Position numbers and translations under genes: made by a program. A model generated the notes under the pieces. The model did no database searches. It saw nothing but the letters and a program-made list of their open reading frames with translations, and was not told where the DNA came from. Source: a virus. Taken from it: a stretch of DNA of 40,918 nt. The stretch covers positions 1-40,918 of the IMG/VR virus record IMGVR_UViG_3300012189_000006. The stretch is one strand, 5' to 3'. This document shows, piece by piece, positions 1-40,918 of this stretch; positions within the stretch are counted from its first letter, which is position 1; each line of letters opens with the position of its first letter.

Positions 1-123
1 CAAGAACTCCACTGCAGAGTACCTCGCAATGTGGATAAGCCGCAAGTTCTCGCAAGACATGGGATACGACGGCAAACTAATGTACGTGAAGCGCGTACGT
101 GTCTACGAAACGGAGGATAGCTA
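1..123. repeat. Terminal direct repeat, left copy (circular assembly overlap)
   Basis: Bases 1-123 are identical to bases 40796-40918. The repeat lies inside a single gene (queD), which reads continuously across it. A perfect short overlap at contig ends is the usual signature of a circular assembly rather than of physical direct terminal repeats, although a circularly permuted or cohesive-ended molecule would look the same. The unique genome length is therefore about 40,795 bp. Confidence 0.95.
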
Positions 124-139
124 CGCTGAGTGGAGCTGA
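1..139 (+). CDS. queD: QueD (6-carboxy-tetrahydropterin synthase), 3' part
   Basis: This is the end of the gene that starts at 40557. It reads in frame from the right end of the window through the repeat and stops with TGA at 137-139, giving a complete 125-residue protein. The part encoded here carries the STAEYLA segment (family Glu near residue 86) and the C-terminal strand with the final Glu. The last five codons spell Tyr-Ala-Glu-Trp-Ser and are repeated, with only synonymous changes, at 489-506 at the end of the homing endonuclease gene that follows. The catalytic and zinc residues are described with the 40557 entry. Confidence 0.93.
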   Translation, partial: KNSTAEYLAMWISRKFSQDMGYDGKLMYVKRVRVYETEDSYAEWS

Positions 140-506
140 GCTCGACCCCAGGTACGTAGCAGGACTCTTCGACGGAGAAGGATGGATCAGTGTAGCCGTC
201 AACCAGAGTGGCTACACTAACGTCCACATAGGGATAGCTATGAAACACTCAGTAGTGGCAGACGTACACGATAAGTACGGAGGAAGTCTACGCATCAGAA
301 AGGACGGGCTCTACCAAGTTGATCTTCAAGGAAAAAGGGATGCCTTAAGGTTCCTACAAGACATTAAAGGCCACCTGAGGGTAAAAAGACGAGTGGCAGA
401 GCTTGCGGAACAACACCTACTAGGAAGTCTCGAGGAACGTGAACCAGTTGCAGCTAAGATCCTAGCCTTAAACGCGAGGGGAAAAAAGTATGCCGAATGG
501 AGTTGA
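99..506 (+). CDS. LAGLIDADG homing endonuclease inserted at the end of queD
   Basis: Predicted single-motif LAGLIDADG DNA endonuclease of at most 135 residues, which would act as a homodimer. The signature VAGLFDGEG is at residues 20-28, with the catalytic acidic residue as the last Glu/Gly pair, followed by the usual beta-rich half (residues 29-85) and a basic helical tail. The only conventional start is GTG at 99, inside queD and without a good ribosome site. A GGAGG at 112-116 points instead to a CTG at 126 (nine-base spacing), giving about 126 residues. The reading frame differs from queD. The last five codons (Tyr-Ala-Glu-Trp-Ser) duplicate the C-terminus of QueD, and the next gene begins inside them at 490. 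No intron core is visible around it, so it appears free-standing. Family assignment is firm; the start is not. Confidence 0.85.
   Translation: MSTKRRIATLSGAELDPRYVAGLFDGEGWISVAVNQSGYTNVHIGIAMKHSVVADVHDKYGGSLRIRKDGLYQVDLQGKRDALRFLQDIKGHLRVKRRVAELAEQHLLGSLEEREPVAAKILALNARGKKYAEWS
122..488 (+). mobile_element. Inferred homing-endonuclease insertion unit with recoded queD terminus
   Basis: The 18 bases at 122-139 and at 489-506 both encode Tyr-Ala-Glu-Trp-Ser-stop. They match at 14 of 18 positions and all four differences are synonymous third-base changes. Removing 122-488 restores an intact queD whose natural end overlaps the next ATG at 490, matching the overlapping style of the rest of the operon. 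The simplest reading is that a 367-bp homing unit entered the last codons of queD and brought its own recoded 3' end. This keeps QueD intact and destroys the target site. The repeat pair is observed; the direction of events is inferred. Confidence 0.6.
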
Positions 507-744
507 CGGCGACGTCAAGAAGATCACAATCACTATCACAGCGGAGCTGCACCCTCAGGGCATAAAGATGCACATCGACGTGCAACCCACCACTACGTAC
601 CCCGACTTCGTGGAAGACATGTGCCTTCGAGCAGGCAGATGGTACGGACGCAAGATCCAAGCTTCGGAGGTACTAACTACCACGATTGCACACCAAGCTG
701 CGCAGCGGGAGCTCAACAAGTTCCCAGGTATCATTAGGCCTTGA
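490..744 (+). CDS. Hypothetical protein, 84 aa
   Basis: No family is recognised. The ATG at 490 lies inside the last codons of the homing endonuclease gene, and the stop overlaps the queE start in a TTGA arrangement. The first half is a run of alternating hydrophobic and charged residues (about 10-35) that looks like two or three beta strands; the second half is helical with conserved-looking Cys, Trp and Tyr around residues 45-55. Its position between queD and queE in a tightly packed modification operon suggests co-expression with preQ0 synthesis, but nothing in the sequence shows a role. Confidence 0.7.
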   Translation: MPNGVDGDVKKITITITAELHPQGIKMHIDVQPTTTYPDFVEDMCLRAGRWYGRKIQASEVLTTTIAHQAAQRELNKFPGIIRP

Positions 745-1418
745 ACCTCCTCGTCTCCGAAACGTTCTACAGTATCCAGGGTGAAGGTCCTCTCATGGGC
801 ACCCCATGCCTGTTCATACGCACGGCGTACTGCAACCTGCACTGCACGTGGTGCGATGCATGGTACACGTGGGATCACAAACGCGCGGACGTGAAGAAGG
901 AGTCCTTCAGTATCCCGGTGGAGGACCTCATCAAGGACGTGAGGCGTCATAGAGTCATTATAATAACCGGAGGTGAGCCGTTACTACAACGCGACGCCTT
1001 AGAAGAGCTTATAGGCTGGGCAGGTGCCTACGGTAGACTATGGCAGTTTGAGACGAACGGCACAAGGCCACCGCTACGCACAAACGTTGACATACGCTAC
1101 GTCGTGTCACCTAAGCTAAGTAACAACGAGGCAGACCCGTTTGGGCGTCGCATCAAGTACGACGTGCTACGTCAGTTCTTGGGACGTACACACTACTTCA
1201 AGTTCGTCATCGACCATCCAGAGGACGTGGACGAAGCTGTCCACATAGTGAACTTCCTTGGCCTAGACAACAGGATAGTATGGCTCATGCCACAGGCCGT
1301 CGACAGTGACATGCTGTCGCTGAAAGGAGAATGGATAGCAGAGGAGTGTAAGCGTCGAGGATGGATGTACAGTGACCGACTGCATATTCGGTTATACGGT
1401 GACCAAAGAGGGACGTAG
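741..1418 (+). CDS. queE: QueE, 7-carboxy-7-deazaguanine synthase
   Basis: Radical SAM enzyme that converts 6-carboxy-tetrahydropterin, the QueD product, into 7-carboxy-7-deazaguanine. The N-terminus SETFYSIQGEGPLMGTP is typical of QueE. The [4Fe-4S] cysteines are C31, C35 and C38 in a CxxxCxxC arrangement, and the SAM-binding GGEP is at 77-80. Its length of 225 residues is normal for the family. The start is TTG at 741, overlapping the previous stop in TTGA; no closer ATG keeps the conserved N-terminus. The stop TAG shares its last base with the GTG start of folE at 1418. All key residues seen are intact, so the enzyme should be functional. Confidence 0.95.
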   Translation: MNLLVSETFYSIQGEGPLMGTPCLFIRTAYCNLHCTWCDAWYTWDHKRADVKKESFSIPVEDLIKDVRRHRVIIITGGEPLLQRDALEELIGWAGAYGRLWQFETNGTRPPLRTNVDIRYVVSPKLSNNEADPFGRRIKYDVLRQFLGRTHYFKFVIDHPEDVDEAVHIVNFLGLDNRIVWLMPQAVDSDMLSLKGEWIAEECKRRGWMYSDRLHIRLYGDQRGT

Positions 1419-1972
1419 TGAAAGATCATCTCATCGTTCAAGGCGTTAAGCTCATCCTTCAAGGATTGGAAGTCAACACGAACGACCGCAACTACATCAA
1501 AACCCCACACCGCGTCCTCGACGCGTACAAGGAGATGTTTACCCGTCGCACGGAGTTTCCACCAGTATTTGAGGAGAAGTACGATGAAATGGTCGTCATG
1601 CGTCATCACACTGCTTGGACTCTATGTCCTCATCATCTCTTGCCTGTGCTACTCGACATATCAGTCGGTTATGTCCCTAATGGAGGTGTTGTCGGTCTAT
1701 CCAAACTTGCGCGTATCGCGGAAATGCACCTCACAGGTCCCATACTTCAGGAGACAGCGACGAACGGGATCGCTGACGACCTAATAAACAGAATATCACC
1801 TCCACCTCTAGGAGCAGGTGTCGTCATAGAAGGAGAACACCTATGCATGAAGATGAGAGGTTTGAGGACAAGCGGCAAGGTGACGACGTCAGCCATGAGG
1901 GGCAGCTTGTTGAACAAGCCGGAGACCAGGGCAGAGTTCCTAGCCCTCGTACGCAACTCACCAAGCAGGTAG
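1418..1972 (+). CDS. folE: FolE, GTP cyclohydrolase I
   Basis: Opens GTP to 7,8-dihydroneopterin triphosphate, the first step towards preQ0. The protein is 184 residues, near the usual length. The zinc ligands C70, H73 (in CPHHLLP) and C143 (in EHLCMKMRGL) are present, as are the GTP-site segment TTSAMRG (156-162) and the helix GLSKLARI (93-100). It starts with GTG sharing one base with the queE stop, so the two are probably translationally coupled. A host FolE would normally be available, so carrying a copy suggests a need for high flux during infection. The last 130 bp overlap a second reading frame that starts at 1843. Confidence 0.96.
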   Translation: MKDHLIVQGVKLILQGLEVNTNDRNYIKTPHRVLDAYKEMFTRRTEFPPVFEEKYDEMVVMRHHTAWTLCPHHLLPVLLDISVGYVPNGGVVGLSKLARIAEMHLTGPILQETATNGIADDLINRISPPPLGAGVVIEGEHLCMKMRGLRTSGKVTTSAMRGSLLNKPETRAEFLALVRNSPSR

Positions 1973-2241
1973 ACCTCATACGTGAGCTTGCACGTGAAGG
2001 CGTCTTCCTGGATGGGGACGGATGGAGTCGTATAGACATCCACCTCACACCGAAGGCAGGTCTACTTGTAGAAGCGAAAGCGACAGCCATTGCTTTAGCG
2101 AAGCGTCAAGCAGTTAGAGTCTATATCACGGACCTGCATCAACAGACAGGCGAAGTGGTGTGGTGTGACCAGGAATACGTGTCGTTAGACTACGGAGGCA
2201 CGTACAACGTATGGAAGAGAGCGGAACTAGGCCTACTATGA
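1843..2241 (+). CDS. Hypothetical protein overlapping the 3' end of folE
   Basis: 132-residue reading frame with no recognised family. The ATG at 1843 has an AAGGAG seven to eight bases upstream and is the only ATG, GTG or TTG in the first half of the frame, so a 130-bp overlap with folE is required unless a rare start is used. The first 40 residues are charged and look like a by-product of the folE frame; residues 45-132 look like an ordinary small alpha/beta protein ending in a Tyr/Trp-containing strand. The stop overlaps the next start in ATGA. The C-terminal part is likely real; the N-terminal boundary is uncertain. Confidence 0.6.
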   Translation: MHEDERFEDKRQGDDVSHEGQLVEQAGDQGRVPSPRTQLTKQVDLIRELAREGVFLDGDGWSRIDIHLTPKAGLLVEAKATAIALAKRQAVRVYITDLHQQTGEVVWCDQEYVSLDYGGTYNVWKRAELGLL

Positions 2242-2681
2242 CGCTGCCGACGCGGGAGGAAATCGCCGAGATCGTGGCGAAGGTGTTTACTACGTTACGT
2301 CTCGAACCTCAAGGGCGTTGGGATGCGGATGTCGTAGAGTTTGAAACGAAGTCCGCGTCGTTTGAGGAGTTAAGCGGCTGGATCGCCGACGCCCTCCGCG
2401 CCGACCTGCAAACGCTCAAGCTGGAAGCGAATGCCTTGCTGACCGCGCGAACAGAATTGAAGAAGAGAGTCACGGACGTTGATTCTCTCTACGACGCCAC
2501 TTTCAAAAATCTTGAGCAAGTTCGCGCTGACTTGCACGCGTGTGCGGAGGCGCTGACACGAGTACAGACGTTCCTTGATCGTGTAGCCTTCAAGCGCGCA
2601 TCATTTGAGCAGCTTGACGAAGAATACAAGGCGCTCAGCGTCGCCCTCGCCCGCCCCGGTGTGAGGGACGCCCTGAAGTGA
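2238..2681 (+). CDS. Hypothetical coiled-coil protein, 147 aa
   Basis: Starts at ATG 2238 in an ATGA overlap with the previous gene; an in-frame upstream start at 2211 is less likely. The protein is almost wholly helical, rich in Leu, Ala, Arg and Glu, with a probable coiled coil over about residues 55-135. There are no catalytic motifs. The stretch is visibly richer in G+C at third positions than its neighbours, hinting at a different origin. It ends in a GTGA overlap with the polymerase gene, so the two are coupled. It could be a polymerase accessory protein, but that is only positional inference. Confidence 0.75.
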   Translation: MTLPTREEIAEIVAKVFTTLRLEPQGRWDADVVEFETKSASFEELSGWIADALRADLQTLKLEANALLTARTELKKRVTDVDSLYDATFKNLEQVRADLHACAEALTRVQTFLDRVAFKRASFEQLDEEYKALSVALARPGVRDALK

Positions 2682-4882
2682 TTGACTGCGGCTGTCACCC
2701 AGCCAATAAGTGGGGTGCTAACCACGTAGGAGGAGACGGACCATCACCTAGTCAAATCATGCTAATAGGGGAGGGACCAGGAGCCGATGAAGACCAAGCA
2801 GGCACACCTTTCGTTGGAGGCGCAGGGAGAATACTTGGAAGGTGGCTTTATGAAGCTGGAGTCTTTCGGGGCGAAGTGCGAGTTGACAACGTCTTCAGTC
2901 ACCGCCCGCCTGGAAACGAGCTTGCAACTGCTAAACCCGATTACTATTCAGCACACGCCGCCCTTGACCAACGAATCAATATTGTTAATCCTCGAGTCAT
3001 TGTTGCACTCGGTGAGACAGCGCTTAACTTCTTCGGCCACAGCGGAATCACCAACTGGCGTGGTTCGTGCTTTGAGTGGAAAGGACGGAGAGTAGTTGCA
3101 ACATTGCACCCAGCCTTCATTATGCGTCAGCAAGGCATGTGGCGCTTCTGCGTCGAGGACATGCGCTTCGCTCTGCGACACGCAGCAACACACTCCATGC
3201 CAAAGCCTACGTACACAATCAACCCTTCTCCACAATGGTTAGAAGAGTGGTGCAGGGAGATCCCCCCTGAGGAGGAGGTGAGTCTTGACCTTGAAACCAC
3301 TATGGACATGGGCACCATCACTCAAGTTTCCCTTGCGTGGCGTCCTCACGAAGCGGTTTGCTTTGACATGGAAGAAGAGTACCTCACAACCCTACTGCGA
3401 CTGCTCCACAGGCCAATTCGTTGGGTGGGTCAGAACATTATCATGTTCGATTCTTTGCGTCTCGCTGAGTTGGGAGCACCACTCATTACGGTGTTTGCCG
3501 ATCTCATGCTCGCTCACCACTTACTGGAATCGCCGGCACCTCATGACCTTGGGTTTATCAACGGCTGCCTTGTGCGTGATCCTTTCTACAAGAACGAGAT
3601 CGTTAGTAATCGACATGTATACGCCTGTAAAGACGCCGACGTCACTCTTCGGTGCTGGCACGTCGCTAAACAACGTCTACAGACGGAGGGAATGCGGGAT
3701 CTATTTCAGGTTGTGATGAAAGTAGCCCACTACGTACGTGCCATGCACCTACGGGGAGTCCCCGTTGATAAGTCGCTTGTCGCAGAGGAGGCGAAGAAGC
3801 TTGGTAAGGAAGCCGAGGAAGTACTCACCAAGATACGGGACGTTACTGGTAACAAGTGGTTCAATCCACGCTCATTCAAGGATTGTCAAGAAGCTCTTTA
3901 CGCCAAGCTCAAACTCCCAGTTCAATATAACCGTAAAGGACGAGAACGGAAGGTTACTACTGACGATGACGCTCTCGTCAAGCTTGGCAAGCAGCATCCA
4001 CTCCCAGGACTAATACTCCAATACCGGAGGCCCGCCAATGACCTCTCGAAGTACTTCCGCGTCGAAACGATCAAGGACGGTCGTTGGTACGTCGATTGGC
4101 GGATTCATGGAACTGAGACTGGACGTTACGCCGCTTGGTTCCACACTATACCTCCAAGGGCACGTTACGTTGTCCGCCAAGATGGCAAAAAGATTGCGTA
4201 TGTTGACGCCCAGCAGGGAGAGTTTCGTGTTGCAGCCTGGTGTTCTGACGATCGAGCTGCCAAAGACGTTTGCGAAGCACCCGGTGGAGTTCACGTTGCG
4301 AACTCTTGCCTCCTCTTCAAATGCAAGCCAGCCGACGTAACACCAATGCGGAAGTTCTACTCTAAGTTCACTACGTATGGCTGGCTTTACGGACGCCAAG
4401 CGGAAAGCATTGAGGAGCAGTACGGAGTACCACGTAAACATGCCCAAGAGATCATAGACGCACTCAACGACACGTACCGCAGGATCGTCATCTGGAAGGC
4501 CGAGACAGCATCTCTGGCGCTACGCCAGGGTTGGTTAAAGAACCCATATGGGCGTAAACGTTACTTTGCGGAGGGGTCAGATGGAGACAAAGAACGTGAG
4601 GCTTATGCGTTCATCCCACAATCTACCTTACATGACATTACACAACGTGCTCACATTCTGGTGGAGGAAAACATACCTACCACAGAGGTCGAGGTCGTGG
4701 CTGACATGCATGATGCCCTCCTACTGGTTGTTGCTCCTATATTTGATCCAACATCGCTCGTGTCCATGGTGTCTAGAGAATACCTTTCAGGACTTGTGAT
4801 GCCATTTGACTACGACGTCCATAACTGGTGGCACGACAAACGCGCTGAAGAAGACGCAAGAGGGAAAGTGATAGTACAATGA
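2678..4882 (+). CDS. Uracil-DNA glycosylase / DNA polymerase A fusion
   Basis: 734-residue replicative polymerase. Residues 28-150 form a family-4-like uracil-DNA glycosylase: GEGPGADED at 31-39, TPFVGGAG at 43-50, RPPGN at 76-80 and LHPAF at 143-147. The cysteines that bind the iron-sulfur cluster in relatives are not conserved: the residue before RPP is His75, and the N-terminus has CGC rather than CxxC. Residues 200-335 are a complete 3'-5' exonuclease (DLET 204-207, NIIMFD 253-258, YACKDAD 315-321). The polymerase domain has motif A Asp510, motif B 557-572 (RKFYSKFTTYGWLYG) and motif C MHDA at 677-680, where most family members have HDE. There is no 5'-3' exonuclease domain. A glycosylase-like N-terminus is also known in the SPO1 polymerase. 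GTG start overlaps the previous stop. Confidence 0.93.
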   Translation: MIDCGCHPANKWGANHVGGDGPSPSQIMLIGEGPGADEDQAGTPFVGGAGRILGRWLYEAGVFRGEVRVDNVFSHRPPGNELATAKPDYYSAHAALDQRINIVNPRVIVALGETALNFFGHSGITNWRGSCFEWKGRRVVATLHPAFIMRQQGMWRFCVEDMRFALRHAATHSMPKPTYTINPSPQWLEEWCREIPPEEEVSLDLETTMDMGTITQVSLAWRPHEAVCFDMEEEYLTTLLRLLHRPIRWVGQNIIMFDSLRLAELGAPLITVFADLMLAHHLLESPAPHDLGFINGCLVRDPFYKNEIVSNRHVYACKDADVTLRCWHVAKQRLQTEGMRDLFQVVMKVAHYVRAMHLRGVPVDKSLVAEEAKKLGKEAEEVLTKIRDVTGNKWFNPRSFKDCQEALYAKLKLPVQYNRKGRERKVTTDDDALVKLGKQHPLPGLILQYRRPANDLSKYFRVETIKDGRWYVDWRIHGTETGRYAAWFHTIPPRARYVVRQDGKKIAYVDAQQGEFRVAAWCSDDRAAKDVCEAPGGVHVANSCLLFKCKPADVTPMRKFYSKFTTYGWLYGRQAESIEEQYGVPRKHAQEIIDALNDTYRRIVIWKAETASLALRQGWLKNPYGRKRYFAEGSDGDKEREAYAFIPQSTLHDITQRAHILVEENIPTTEVEVVADMHDALLLVVAPIFDPTSLVSMVSREYLSGLVMPFDYDVHNWWHDKRAEEDARGKVIVQ

Positions 4883-5217
4883 TTCACCCTAAAGATATAG
4901 GCTGGCTTGCAGCTCTACTCGATGGAGAAGGACACTTTAACCTAAACGGAGGATGTAGCCCACGGTTTACGGTGGCTATGTACGATAGCGACCTCATAGA
5001 GAGGGTATGCCGTCTCACCGGAGGTGTTCATAGAAGTAGAACCAACCGGTTGGGGAAGAAAGTTCACTACACGGACTTGAGCGGTGCTCCTGCCATCGAG
5101 TGGTGTATGACTCTATACACCCTTATGGGAAGAAGGAGAAAGGCCACGATCCAAGGGCTGATCACTATATGGAAGGAAGCTCCTGGTAAAGGTTGGCGCT
5201 TAGGTAAAGGCGCATGA
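4879..5217 (+). CDS. LAGLIDADG homing endonuclease (second copy)
   Basis: 112-residue single-motif LAGLIDADG protein with the signature LAALLDGEG at residues 10-18 and the same overall plan as the copy at 99-506, though the two are well diverged outside the motif. It should dimerise to cut DNA. It is slotted between the polymerase and the dpdA-like gene, with ATGA overlaps at both ends (4879-4882 and 5214-5217), so it is translated as part of the operon. Unlike the first copy, its C-terminus shows no duplication of the flanking gene ends. Start ATG 4879 places the motif at the expected distance from the N-terminus. Confidence 0.88.
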   Translation: MIHPKDIGWLAALLDGEGHFNLNGGCSPRFTVAMYDSDLIERVCRLTGGVHRSRTNRLGKKVHYTDLSGAPAIEWCMTLYTLMGRRRKATIQGLITIWKEAPGKGWRLGKGA

Positions 5218-5900
5218 AACTCTCCTTCCAGGTACCCTTTCCCAACCTTGATGACTTCATTGGGGAACAAGACTTTTTCTACGCTCTTGCGCACCTCGTA
5301 CTCATGGATGATAAGTATCGAGACTTCTTCGTGGGCAGACCTACCATGCTAGACAACGGCCTACATGAGAACGGGTTTCCTATAAAGTCCAGCGACCTCC
5401 TAGACGCGTACCACATTATTAAACCTGACGTGCTTATCCCACCGGACTTCTTCTTCGACGCTGAAGGTAGTATTGTAGGTTTCCTAGAGATGGCTAACCT
5501 CTTAGGAAGTGTAGAACACCTTTACCCCGTAGTACACGGTAAGTCGTGGAAGGAACTAATGCGTTGCTACGAGACGTACCTCAGCCACAGAGTAAAGGGT
5601 GTGTGCTGGCCTTACCGTATTGGCATGGCGCGCACGCTAATGATCCCCAACATGGCCAACAACATCAGACATCACTTCCTGGGAGTAGGTTGGTTCAATG
5701 AGCTTGTGGCAATACGCTTCGCACCCAACGCGTCTTTGGACACGGGTAAACCGTTTCGGTACGCACAGGTTGGGCTTCCATGGAGTCACGAGAACGACCT
5801 AATGAAGCTACCTAAACTGGATATGGAACTGCAGTGCGATGTACAAGCTGCCAAGGAGAGCATCGCAGGTATGAAGAGGATACTTGACTTTGCTTCCTAG
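5214..5900 (+). CDS. dpdA: DpdA-like DNA-guanine transglycosylase
   Basis: 228-residue member of the tRNA-guanine transglycosylase superfamily of the short phage type. Expected role: exchange of guanine in the phage DNA for the 7-deazaguanine base made by FolE, QueD, QueE and QueC. Candidate catalytic aspartates are Asp47 (in MLDNG, equivalent to the base-recognition Asp) and Asp78 (in LIPPDFFFD, equivalent to the nucleophile). HHFLGVGWFNEL at 153-164 matches the superfamily helix-strand near the C-terminus. The zinc-binding cysteine set of true tRNA enzymes is absent, which fits a DNA-acting member. It is the last gene of the tightly overlapping operon before a 95-bp structured gap. Superfamily is clear; DNA as substrate follows from context. 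Confidence 0.85.
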   Translation: MKLSFQVPFPNLDDFIGEQDFFYALAHLVLMDDKYRDFFVGRPTMLDNGLHENGFPIKSSDLLDAYHIIKPDVLIPPDFFFDAEGSIVGFLEMANLLGSVEHLYPVVHGKSWKELMRCYETYLSHRVKGVCWPYRIGMARTLMIPNMANNIRHHFLGVGWFNELVAIRFAPNASLDTGKPFRYAQVGLPWSHENDLMKLPKLDMELQCDVQAAKESIAGMKRILDFAS

Positions 5901-14472: not shown

Positions 14473-14841
14473 CTACAACTTGAACTGCGGCTTGCACACC
14501 ACTACTACGGTCAATGACGTTGTACCATCTCCTGCAGTCACGTGAGGATAAATGAGCAACGGGTTCTCAAGGATCTGCTTCAACCCTGCAGCCGTGAACG
14601 TCAAAGCGTTGGCCTGAGGGTCCCTCAAGATGATGTCCGCACCCGTAACGATCGGAGACGTGTTGGTGCCTTTCAGTGAAACACTACCACCTACTCCGAA
14701 GGTACCAGTCACGTGGAAGCATTTCTCTGACTGCCACGGGATCTCCTGCCCATCCCCGTTATCGCCGTTCAGGAGACCTGACCACGTGATCACCACAACT
14801 CCGTTGGCCCTTGTTGTGACAACTGCGCTCCTAGTCGCCAT
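14473..14841 (-). CDS. Beta-rich virion protein, 122 aa
   Basis: Small strand-rich protein with a Gly/Asn/Asp loop (LLNGDNGDGQEIPW, residues 23-36) and Val-rich strands at the C-terminus. No family recognised. It overlaps the stop of the ATP-grasp gene by 11 bp and is probably coupled to it. Best read as a structural or decoration protein. The joint translation with the ATP-grasp enzyme raises the possibility that it is a substrate, which is speculation. Confidence 0.7.
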   Translation of the reverse strand: MATRSAVVTTRANGVVVITWSGLLNGDNGDGQEIPWQSEKCFHVTGTFGVGGSVSLKGTNTSPIVTGADIILRDPQANALTFTAAGLKQILENPLLIYPHVTAGDGTTSLTVVVVCKPQFKL

Positions 14842-16096
14842 CAGACACCCCTCTCAGGAGTTCTGGCACCTCACGTATTGCCCTTTCGCCTATGTCCAAA
14901 CGGTACTGTACATCAGGTACTAGTACCTTTCTAACGCGTTCGTACACAACCTTGCGTGACTCAGTCACCGTAGGTCCCACAGCAGTCATTATTCCTACAA
15001 TCCCGTCGTTACCTGCAGTTACAAGGTCGCCATCCCCGTCAAGCATCACGTCGCCGAGGTGGAAGTGCTTCATCAAGTTGTCAGGCATCCTAATAGGCGT
15101 ACCCTGCTCCTCAGCAAGTTCCTCCACGTTGTCACCAGGATGAGGTGGTACCGTCATCGTAACACCCGTTGCGAAGCCAAAGTTCACTTTGAACTGCTTC
15201 GCTTGACCCCTCGCAACGTCGCTAAACATCCTTCCAATCTCCATGTCCAATAGTTCCACCATAGTCTGAATCGCGTCATAGCCAAGACGCGGAGTAAACT
15301 CCAAAGCAAACCCACCTTTGGTGTTAACATCCAAAGGCCCTCTGTAGTCGACACGACGCAGGTAATTGGTGAGCTTAAGAAGAGTATCCTTAGCGAGCTT
15401 GGGTCGCGCGTGCCTGTAGAAGAACACGACGTTGCCCATACACCCAGTGTTTGGACCGAGACCACCGGTGAGAAATCGCTTTTCCTCCAAAGTGGAGTTA
15501 ATCGAATGAAACACCCAGTCTTGACCATTGAACCACCCCTCAATGCTGACTTCTAGACCTTCGACTTTTTCCTGTAACTCGAAGTCCAAATCCTCTCCTA
15601 CGGCTCGTGCAACACGTTCCATGTCCTTGACTAGTTCCTCGTTACTGTCAGCTACAACCGTCAACGCCGCAGGAATGTCCTTCCCGTGTGGCTTGAACAC
15701 CAACGGTTTGCCGTGGTGCTGCGCAAACTCAATACCCTCCTTAATGTTAGTGAACCCAGCTGTAGGTGGCACCTTAATGCCAGAGGCTGCCATCAGTCGA
15801 GTGGCGAAAAGACGATCATGCTCCAAAGCATCGTTGAAAGTGCCGCCGCAACAAACAGCAAATCCGCGCCGACGAAGCTCGTCTGCTTTCTTTCCAGCTC
15901 CGGTGAAATCGAACACAACAACGCTATCGTCGTCAACACGAACAGACTCAACCAGAGGAACAAGGCCTTCACCTACCCTTCCTCGGGACTTCCTGTTGAC
16001 CTCTTCCTGGTAGAACTTAACCTCGTTGCCCTCAGCTTGTATACGCTGCGCCAAGCTCAACGAGAACCCCTTGACGCTGTAGAAGAAGAACTTCAT
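14831..16096 (-). CDS. PurD-like ATP-grasp ligase in the virion operon
   Basis: 421-residue ATP-grasp enzyme closest in motif to phosphoribosylamine-glycine ligase (PurD). Seen are GPNTGCMG at 214-221 (PurD has GPNTGGMG), an ATP-binding Lys in VFKPHG (132-137), the EGLEVSIEGWF strand (179-189) and the metal-binding EFTPRLGYD (266-274; PurD has EFNxRFGDPE). The N-terminal domain (1-85) is a degenerate pre-ATP-grasp fold without the usual PurD GGREH start. A larger open frame begins at 16222, but the ATG at 16096 overlaps the previous stop in ATGA and begins a typical strand. Such ligases join a carboxylate to an amine using ATP. Its substrate is unknown; purine synthesis, protein modification and base hypermodification are all possible. 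Confidence 0.85.
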   Translation of the reverse strand: MKFFFYSVKGFSLSLAQRIQAEGNEVKFYQEEVNRKSRGRVGEGLVPLVESVRVDDDSVVVFDFTGAGKKADELRRRGFAVCCGGTFNDALEHDRLFATRLMAASGIKVPPTAGFTNIKEGIEFAQHHGKPLVFKPHGKDIPAALTVVADSNEELVKDMERVARAVGEDLDFELQEKVEGLEVSIEGWFNGQDWVFHSINSTLEEKRFLTGGLGPNTGCMGNVVFFYRHARPKLAKDTLLKLTNYLRRVDYRGPLDVNTKGGFALEFTPRLGYDAIQTMVELLDMEIGRMFSDVARGQAKQFKVNFGFATGVTMTVPPHPGDNVEELAEEQGTPIRMPDNLMKHFHLGDVMLDGDGDLVTAGNDGIVGIMTAVGPTVTESRKVVYERVRKVLVPDVQYRLDIGERAIREVPELLRGVSDGD

Positions 16097-16362
16097 CCCA
16101 TCAACATCTGCAGTAGTGGTAGCATTTGCATACCCGTTTGTACACCTTGGCCAAGACCACCTTGCTGTTGGGGCTGCTGTTGAGGTTGCTGCTGTTGTTG
16201 TCCTAACTGTGTTTTCAACCACATCAACAGGCGTTGTCTTCGGCGTTCCTCTTCACCCTGCCTCGCTTGGTCAGCAGCACCTGCTCCGCCGCTTCTGCCA
16301 AGAGACTCCACAGGCATTCCTGCCATTAGGACCTCAGCGAGACCTCCCATGTCACCATTCAT
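16093..16362 (-). CDS. Small Gln-rich virion-region protein, 89 aa
   Basis: Helical protein with a Met/Gly-rich N-terminus, a basic helix (RRRQRLLMWLKTQ) and a polyglutamine/proline stretch (about residues 54-67), ending in a Met/Leu-rich hydrophobic tail. It has no family match by eye. Located four bases after the 1515-residue internal protein and coupled to the ATP-grasp gene. The composition is shared with the Gln/Met-rich protein at 20914, suggesting a common role among internal or ejected virion proteins. Confidence 0.7.
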   Translation of the reverse strand: MNGDMGGLAEVLMAGMPVESLGRSGGAGAADQARQGEEERRRQRLLMWLKTQLGQQQQQPQQQPQQQGGLGQGVQTGMQMLPLLQMLMG

Positions 16363-37292: not shown

Positions 37293-37537
37293 TGGCAATA
37301 CCCACGGGCAGCGCCCACTACAAGAGAGGCGAGGTAGAACCCCTGGAGCTGATTGAAGCTCAGGACCTAAACTTTCACCTCGGCTGTGTGGTGAAGTATG
37401 CAGTAAGAGCTCACTACTACACCGGCACTCTGCAACCCAGTGACGCTTTGGAAGCAGTAGACAAAGCTATGTGGTACCTACAGAGGTACAAGGAGGTAGT
37501 GCTCGGATGGAAAGAAAAGGAACAGTCGCACTCGTAA
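37292..37537 (+). CDS. DUF3310 protein, 81 aa
   Basis: Matches the DUF3310 family: SAHYKRGEVEPLELIEAQDLNFHLGCVVKYAVRA (residues 7-40) and DALEAVDKAMWYLQRYKE are the two hallmark segments. It is common in phage early regions and annotated loosely as nucleotide-kinase-like without proven activity. Start ATG overlaps the previous TAA, and its end overlaps the queC start by 31 bp. Confidence 0.85.
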   Translation: MAIPTGSAHYKRGEVEPLELIEAQDLNFHLGCVVKYAVRAHYYTGTLQPSDALEAVDKAMWYLQRYKEVVLGWKEKEQSHS

Positions 37538-38187
37538 GTGGGGGTCTCGACTCATGCGTCGCACTAGCATGGGCAGTGGCCTCTCTGGCTGACGTGCGCC
37601 TGGCGGTGCAGTTCGACTACGGCCAGACCCACCACAAGGAGTTAGAGCACGCACGTAAGGTGTGCGAACACTACGGCATACCACGCACTATGATCCACGT
37701 CAACATGGGACACATCAAGCCCACAGAGGTGGGTCACCTGCTGCGCAGCGAGCTAGACACGCAGCTCGCACACGGCACCGTCGTGGACCAACATGGTGAA
37801 CACGTCTCCGCGACGTTCGTTCCGGGACGGAACATCATCTTCCTCGCGTACGCAGGCAGCCTGTGTGACTCAGAAGGTTACCGGGGTATCGTCGCGGGCA
37901 TGAACGCCGTGGACTACAGCGGGTACCCAGACTGCAGACCACAGTTCCTACATGCTATGGAACGAGCCCTTGGACACGGTCTCCGTTGGGGTGTGCAGAT
38001 CCACACACCTCTGGTGATGCTTAAGAAGTCTGAGATCATCAAGCTCGGCATGGACCTCAAGGCACCGTTGCACTTGACGTGGTCGTGCTACACGGGCAAC
38101 ACGAGGCCGTGTGGTGCATGTCCAAGCTGCCTAGTGCGTGCCAAAGGCTTCAAGGAGGCGGGTGTTGTTGACCCGGCGTTGATATGA
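37507..38187 (+). CDS. queC: QueC, 7-cyano-7-deazaguanine (preQ0) synthase
   Basis: Converts 7-carboxy-7-deazaguanine to preQ0 with ATP and ammonia through the amide intermediate. 226 residues from ATG 37507, with AAGGAGG 10 bases upstream; the in-frame GTG 12 codons earlier lies in the DUF3310 gene. PP-loop SGGLDS at 11-16, FVPGRN at 104-109, GMNAVDYSGYPDC at 131-143, and zinc cysteines C194, C202, C205 and C208 are all present. Normal length and intact motifs. No Gat domain is fused, and no QueF or amidotransferase gene was found, so preQ0 itself, or the amide if the second step is slow, should be the base delivered. Confidence 0.96.
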   Translation: MERKGTVALVSGGLDSCVALAWAVASLADVRLAVQFDYGQTHHKELEHARKVCEHYGIPRTMIHVNMGHIKPTEVGHLLRSELDTQLAHGTVVDQHGEHVSATFVPGRNIIFLAYAGSLCDSEGYRGIVAGMNAVDYSGYPDCRPQFLHAMERALGHGLRWGVQIHTPLVMLKKSEIIKLGMDLKAPLHLTWSCYTGNTRPCGACPSCLVRAKGFKEAGVVDPALI

Positions 38188-40567: not shown

Positions 40568-40918
40568 AGTCTGCAAGACGTTCAGGTTTGAAGCAGCGCA
40601 CCGCTTGGAAGGCTGGCCCCCTGAACACAAGTGTCACAACATGCATGGACACTCGTACCGGGTAGAGGTTGAAATCGAGGGTAAGGTCAACCCAGAGACC
40701 GGGGTAGTCATCGACTTCGGTGTCATTGCTGAGTACTGGAAGAGGGCACTACTTCCAACACTTGACCACAAGTACCTTAACGAAGTGCTTGGTGTCAAGA
40801 ACTCCACTGCAGAGTACCTCGCAATGTGGATAAGCCGCAAGTTCTCGCAAGACATGGGATACGACGGCAAACTAATGTACGTGAAGCGCGTACGTGTCTA
40901 CGAAACGGAGGATAGCTA
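40557..40918 (+). CDS. queD: QueD, 6-carboxy-tetrahydropterin synthase (5' part, continues at base 1)
   Basis: Converts dihydroneopterin triphosphate (FolE product) into 6-carboxy-tetrahydropterin for QueE. The full protein is 125 residues across the circular join, the normal length. Zinc ligands H15 (in FEAAHRL), H30 and H32 (in MHGHSY), catalytic C26, and D70-H71 in TLDHKYLN are present, then E86 in STAEYLA. ATG 40557 overlaps the zinc-finger gene. The 3' end ends at base 139 on the circular map and is followed by the homing endonuclease insertion. Confidence 0.95.
   Translation, partial: MATRVCKTFRFEAAHRLEGWPPEHKCHNMHGHSYRVEVEIEGKVNPETGVVIDFGVIAEYWKRALLPTLDHKYLNEVLGVKNSTAEYLAMWISRKFSQDMGYDGKLMYVKRVRVYETEDS
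40796..40918. repeat. Terminal direct repeat, right copy
   Basis: Identical to bases 1-123. Its whole length lies inside queD, with no stop or frame break at the join, as expected for a circular genome. Confidence 0.95.

Follow-up and report, generated by a model that had tools for sequence, protein, structure and literature searches.

How can an endonuclease gene come to lie between two genes that overlap in their relatives, and leave both of them in working order? This question is raised by a viral DNA of 40,918 nt (IMG/VR record IMGVR_UViG_3300012189_000006; the whole of this stretch is called the window here), in which a LAGLIDADG gene of the homing endonuclease type (HEG) stands between queD and a conserved small open reading frame (ORF), orf3. 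An earlier note, made from the sequence alone, had described a mobile unit in the last codons of queD. We consider it likely that the endonuclease gene was inserted into the queD/orf3 overlap and that the overlap was duplicated, so that both neighbors keep working. The features of the locus are given below, where L013 and L014 are two viral contigs free of the HEG.

1 to 139, forward strand: 3' part of queD; the gene crosses the contig ends and is complete in contig L001 (L001:2273-2650); conserved ET motif followed by SYAEWS and stop; Pfam PTPS, E=6.8e-6.
112 to 116, forward strand: Shine-Dalgarno sequence GGAGG; once the empty allele is joined, the orf3 ATG follows it after 6 nt, and in the window no ATG does.
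122 to 139, forward strand: proximal overlap copy, TACGCTGAGTGGAGCTGA; YAEWS and stop in the queD frame.
122 to 488, forward strand: putative inserted unit of 367 bp, made up of one overlap copy and the endonuclease core, as judged from the spacing in L013 and L014.
126 to 506, forward strand: LAGLIDADG endonuclease gene; likeliest start CTG126 or ACG123, within a frame that is open over 90-506; family core approximately 141-488.
489 to 506, forward strand: distal copy, TATGCCGAATGGAGTTGA; endonuclease end and orf3 start, and presumably the native queD terminus, at the position of the queD-orf3 junction of relatives.
490 to 744, forward strand: orf3, between queD and queE; orthologues at L013:2774-3004 and L014:2765-2995, both of which overlap the end of queD.

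Direct reading of the sequence bore out the observation on which the earlier note was built. The end of queD and the end of the endonuclease frame both encode Tyr-Ala-Glu-Trp-Ser-stop (YAEWS-stop), with four differences between the proximal and distal copies (TAC/TAT, GCT/GCC, GAG/GAA and AGC/AGT), all of which are silent third-base transitions, and the next gene starts inside the distal copy, at ATG490. The DNA-level match of 14/18 is unremarkable by itself, and a simple DNA repeat screen of the window does not single the pair out; the evidence for duplication comes from the frame, from the silence of the changes and from the location of the copies at the ends of two genes. Among the 147,696 ORF-tail pairs of the window, queD and the endonuclease formed the only pair sharing five terminal residues. 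When the comparison was extended to all loci (2,876 distinct tails), five-residue sharing was found in 1.2e-5 of the pairs, homologues included, and these two tails were the only ones ending in YAEWS. YAEWS-stop is kept by 0.02% of all four-substitution changes to the 18-mer, or by 0.36% if only transitions are considered. In the orf3 frame, all four differences alter residues, the start codon included; the proximal copy reads TLSGA as compared with MPNGV in the distal copy, and the start codon is lost. Since phage QueDs elsewhere end in ETEDSYAEW or ETEDSYAEY, YAEWS can be taken as QueD material.

The gene between the two copies had been called a homing endonuclease gene, and the evidence agrees with a LAGLIDADG gene of this type. 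Its frame contains the motif YVAGLFDGEGW, with the acidic catalytic residue expected of the family, in which the Y and AGLFDGEG are invariant in 16 aligned sequences, and it has relatives at 31-40% identity in other viral contigs. It matched PHROG 5046 (E=4.8e-13), and its Pfam LAGLIDADG_3 score was under the cut-off (18.4 vs 22.5 bits). An AlphaFold2 model built on the 16 sequences (mean predicted local distance difference test score, pLDDT, 93.3) had its best Foldseek matches in I-CreI (E=9.5e-7, template modeling score 0.70), I-CvuI and I-MsoI, with E-values of about 1e-6, and the predicted fold is alpha-beta-beta-alpha-beta-beta-alpha, the arrangement that LAGLIDADG membership requires. 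As modeled, the frame is that of a genuine LAGLIDADG gene, with a single motif and a fold resembling that of I-CreI, and its protein may cleave DNA in a sequence-specific manner. The protein has 126 aa with a core of approximately 116 aa, and its frame differs from that of queD. The family alignment ends in ALNARGKK, at 488, and YAEWS lies past it; the last five codons and the stop thus appear to be a queD-derived addition beyond the family core, consistent with the earlier suggestion that the old queD terminus was reused as the endonuclease C-terminus. In agreement with the earlier note, neither an intron nor an intein was found: no group I or group II intron was matched by Rfam in positions 1-5600 and queD is complete without splicing, while Pfam detected no Hint domain in the endonuclease, the frame of which is not that of queD.

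The empty form of the site was assessed from L013 and L014, which retain the order queD-orf3-queE-folE-polA with no endonuclease at this place or at polA (see below). As compared with the window, their folE genes are 65-68%, polA approximately 65% and QueD approximately 47-52% identical. The end of queD overlaps orf3 by 4 nt in L013 and by 8 nt in L014, and no HEG-free relative was seen in which queD ended with the 122-139 version or the overlap was missing, either of which the earlier note had named as contrary evidence. The orf3 of the window can be aligned with its orthologues along its length and has seven extra N-terminal residues. When base 121 is joined to base 489, the distance from the ETED codons of queD to the orf3 core becomes 49 nt, as compared with 53 nt in L013, 52 nt in L014 and 416 nt in the window. 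The alternative join, 139/507, puts ACG where orf3 needs ATG and leaves orf3 without a start codon. In the 121/489 allele, GGAGG stands 6 nt upstream of the orf3 ATG (-9.5 kcal/mol), and the predicted queD/orf3 overlap is 17 nt. The GGAGG supports the join mildly, because the conserved ETED codons make it fairly likely in any case. The junction lies one base off the center of a perfect 8-bp palindrome, ATAGCTAT (central AGCT), which would be expected for approximately 1.7% of random points. The distal copy sits where the relatives have the end of queD. A unit of 367 bp, lying between base 121 and base 489, and a re-supplied QueD end were both upheld. The 121/489 join may represent the actual ancestral allele, which is predicted to read ...GGAGGATAGC up to base 121, followed by TATGCCGAATGG... 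from base 489.

In the proximal copy, the endonuclease frame is that of the old orf3 (ACG CTG AGT GGA GCT GAG vs ATG CCG AAT GGA GTT GAC), and in the distal copy, it is the queD frame, the switch being due to the insertion length of 367. The endonuclease gene therefore spans the old orf3 start to the old queD stop. Its start had been placed at 99. The frame is indeed open from 90, but GTG99 lacks a Shine-Dalgarno sequence (-0.2 kcal/mol) and CTG126 and ACG123 are preceded by GGAGG (-9.5 kcal/mol), so that GTG99 is probably not the true start. If the proximal copy formerly read ATG, a silent TAT-to-TAC change would have removed the endonuclease start codon.

A second endonuclease gene in the window showed a similar arrangement.

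4879 to 5217, forward strand: second LAGLIDADG gene, lying where polA and the gene after it overlap by 4 nt (ATGA), with ATGA at both ends; PHROG 5046, E=6.3e-8.

This gene has its start on the ATGA that closes polA and its end on the ATGA that opens the next gene. In the HEG-free contigs L050 and L051, polA overlaps the next gene by the same ATGA with nothing in between. The second endonuclease also starts in the frame of the downstream gene and stops in that of the upstream gene. BLASTP between the two window endonucleases gave no useful similarity, though both match PHROG 5046. The duplication of an overlap is trivial at 4 nt, and at 17 nt it is seen as a protein repeat. The polA gene itself (2678-4882) is a single ORF that encodes a fusion of an N-terminal uracil-DNA-glycosylase domain (Pfam UDG, 3.2e-21) with a family A DNA polymerase (DNA_pol_A, 1.8e-37).

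Taken together, these data suggest the following course of events. A free-standing I-CreI-type LAGLIDADG gene would have entered the 17-nt overlap of queD and orf3, duplicating the overlap on entry. The upstream copy would complete QueD, and the downstream copy would supply the orf3 start codon and, in the queD frame, the five residues with which the endonuclease ends. The endonuclease frame would enter in the frame of orf3, beside the former ribosome site of orf3, and exit on the old queD stop. The copies may have diverged after, or by, the insertion; the changes in the upstream copy would all be silent for QueD because this copy has only QueD to encode. The uninterrupted junction may be the cleavage target, and the altered, split site would no longer be cut; the joined site is thus predicted to be cut and the present site not. 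The earlier note had the host gene survive by recoding alone. The re-supply of the QueD end stands, but the duplication probably goes back to the overlap of queD and orf3 in the ancestor, since any insertion into an overlap must duplicate it if both genes are to be kept. We read the overlap duplication, rather than the recoding itself, as the core of the event, because the second endonuclease duplicated its 4-nt overlap likewise.

Several observations weigh against this course of events. The present start of the endonuclease is non-standard (CTG or ACG), so its expression is uncertain. A DNA search of phage records with bases 1-1500 gave no match, and when viral contigs were scanned with orf3, with the endonuclease, with queE and folE and with a degenerate ETED-YAE pattern, a single contig proved near-identical and the three to four other relatives distant, with no close empty allele among them; in L013 and L014, the nearest relatives free of the HEG, the overlaps measure 4 and 8 nt as against the predicted 17. 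The terminal duplication was seen in none of the other loci surveyed of the endonuclease family (28 rows, including some repeat contigs), in none of the family members returned by one genome scan, nor in the five free-standing T4 genes checked, segF, segA, mobA, mobB and mobC. The endonuclease relatives of Gordonia, Mycobacterium, Weizmannia and cyanophage sit in or beside methylase, polA or terminase genes, and a comparison of the cyanophage terminase and endonuclease ends showed no match. An empty allele carrying TACGCTGAG would count against the insertion proposed here.

In the strongest alternative, homing was accompanied by co-conversion, with a diverged phage as the donor. The anatomy would be the same and the source of the silent changes would differ: the proximal queD end would be the natural terminus of the donor, and the silent differences would be ordinary divergence, not immunity recoding. 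We regard this as a serious contender that falls somewhat short of probable. The same proposal has been made for the mitochondria of Glomus and Allomyces (PMC3630166), all four silent sites differ, as saturated divergence of distant orthologues would give, and codon preference, TAC over TAT excepted, neither clearly separates the copies nor indicates which is native; the donor sequence, on the other hand, was not found. With 18 bp and distant relatives to go by, either the proximal or the distal copy may be the foreign one, and their divergence may have arisen with or without selection. Illegitimate recombination or tandem junction duplication without endonuclease cleavage, by which any small gene could enter phage operons, is unlikely. 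It has a precedent in L014, where a non-endonuclease gene (4805-5122) has beside it a near-perfect copy, 23 bp long, of the end of the preceding gene, but both LAGLIDADG genes of the window occupy such junctions, members of the family move by cleavage, and the junction lies at a palindrome center. An accidental YAEWS ending, by chance or convergence, is extremely improbable, for although a 14/18 DNA similarity is not unusual among window repeats, the expectation is approximately 1e-5 or less per ORF pair and the two tails agree in frame, in lying at neighboring gene ends, in a QueD-type motif and in the position of the queD end of relatives.

The way in which the record was assembled may also bear on the insertion into the overlap.

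40796 to 40918, forward strand: exact repeat of bases 1-123; circular assembly, ending at the predicted fork of filled and empty alleles.

The record, a circular assembly, comes to 40,795 bp and has its break within queD; a second contig spans the joint. Base 123 is the last of the contig and also the last that the occupied and predicted empty alleles have in common: they are identical exactly over bases 1-123 and differ at 124. This hints at the presence in the sample of a variant that departs from the contig at base 124, as is expected of the empty allele. The chance of a break at a given base is approximately 1/40,795, for a comparison that was made post hoc, and a simple substitution at base 124 would give the same break. 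A length of 123 is also the largest k-mer in some de Bruijn assemblies. Assembly break points, as this coincidence suggests, can preserve the fork between alleles that a mobile gene creates.

In phages, free-standing endonuclease genes are mostly described as intergenic. The present case suggests an entry route where no space exists, into overlapping coding sequences, without intron or intein and with neither gene broken. With two overlap-duplicating endonuclease insertions in the window genome, it is conceivable, although we hold this extension only tentatively and with more doubt than confidence, that such insertion is a general lifestyle of free-standing LAGLIDADG genes in tight phage operons. 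In such a scheme, the enzyme would cut a stop/start overlap, take the downstream start and the upstream stop, and duplicate the overlap, leaving the neighbors unharmed; the freed copy would drift, or be selected, to silent variants that escape cleavage.

The genes around the locus include others that point, with queD, to a preQ0/7-deazaguanine pathway.

741 to 1418, forward strand: queE (radical SAM), from Pfam and synteny.
1418 to 1972, forward strand: folE (GTP cyclohydrolase I), Pfam E=9e-41.
37471 to 38187: queC.

Together, queC, queD, queE and folE would make up the full preQ0 route, which suggests 7-deazaguanine-modified phage DNA and is consistent with that modification as described in PMC6884629. 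An ORF on the reverse strand (14831-16222) carries GARS_A/GARS_C domains (GAR synthetase-like, purine biosynthesis, ATP-grasp). In L014 (4786-5130), the gene at 4805-5122, which has no assigned function and is missing in L013, lies between near-identical 23-bp copies of the end of the preceding gene (AEARQR-stop, one silent difference), and the gene after it also ends in CAGCGATGA.

Among known systems, I-CreI, a single-motif LAGLIDADG homodimer, is alike in predicted fold, motif and size, and differs in being intron-encoded, the protein of the window gene being a putative endonuclease. The free-standing T4 genes segC, segF, mobA and mobC overlap the end of the upstream gene with their starts by 11-24 bp, suggesting coupled translation, and in this overlap they resemble the present gene (PMC2988022). 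The ShiLan element in a phage methylase gene is an insertion with a hidden endonuclease, and its first 11 residues, when read in the frame of the host gene, are similar to those that follow the insertion site in the host; however, it is an HNH endonuclease within an ORF, not at a gene junction, and its authors discuss introns and inteins (PMC11855218). In the yeast WHO elements at FBA1, for which allele-specific cutting was proven experimentally, a 3' fragment is duplicated downstream and no splicing is involved, as here; they are eukaryotic, with intein-derived proteins containing zinc fingers and gene ends of approximately 400 bp, in contrast to the minimal I-CreI-like protein of the phage (PMC7282813). 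We rejected WHO-type membership, as the 126-aa protein is I-CreI-like only, with no intein-derived endonuclease or zinc finger. The trick itself is known from fungi, and an earlier phage report of a duplicated gene end was not found in searches confined to an open-access library. A further likeness is to the mitochondrial mobile ORFs (mORFs) in atp6, atp9, cox2 and nad3 of Glomus, first seen in atp6 of Allomyces, in which a substitute C-terminus stands beside the gene body and the native copy lies past the endonuclease (PMC3630166). There as here, an endonuclease gene without intron or intein brings a substitute host C-terminus and strands the native one downstream, so that the host C-terminus is present in duplicate, one copy on each side of the endonuclease. 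In the phage case, the duplication amounts to six codons including the stop, two overlapping genes take part, and the terminus left stranded doubles as the C-terminus of the endonuclease and the start of the next gene. A principle seen in fungal mitochondria and in the yeast WHO elements would thereby be carried over to phages.
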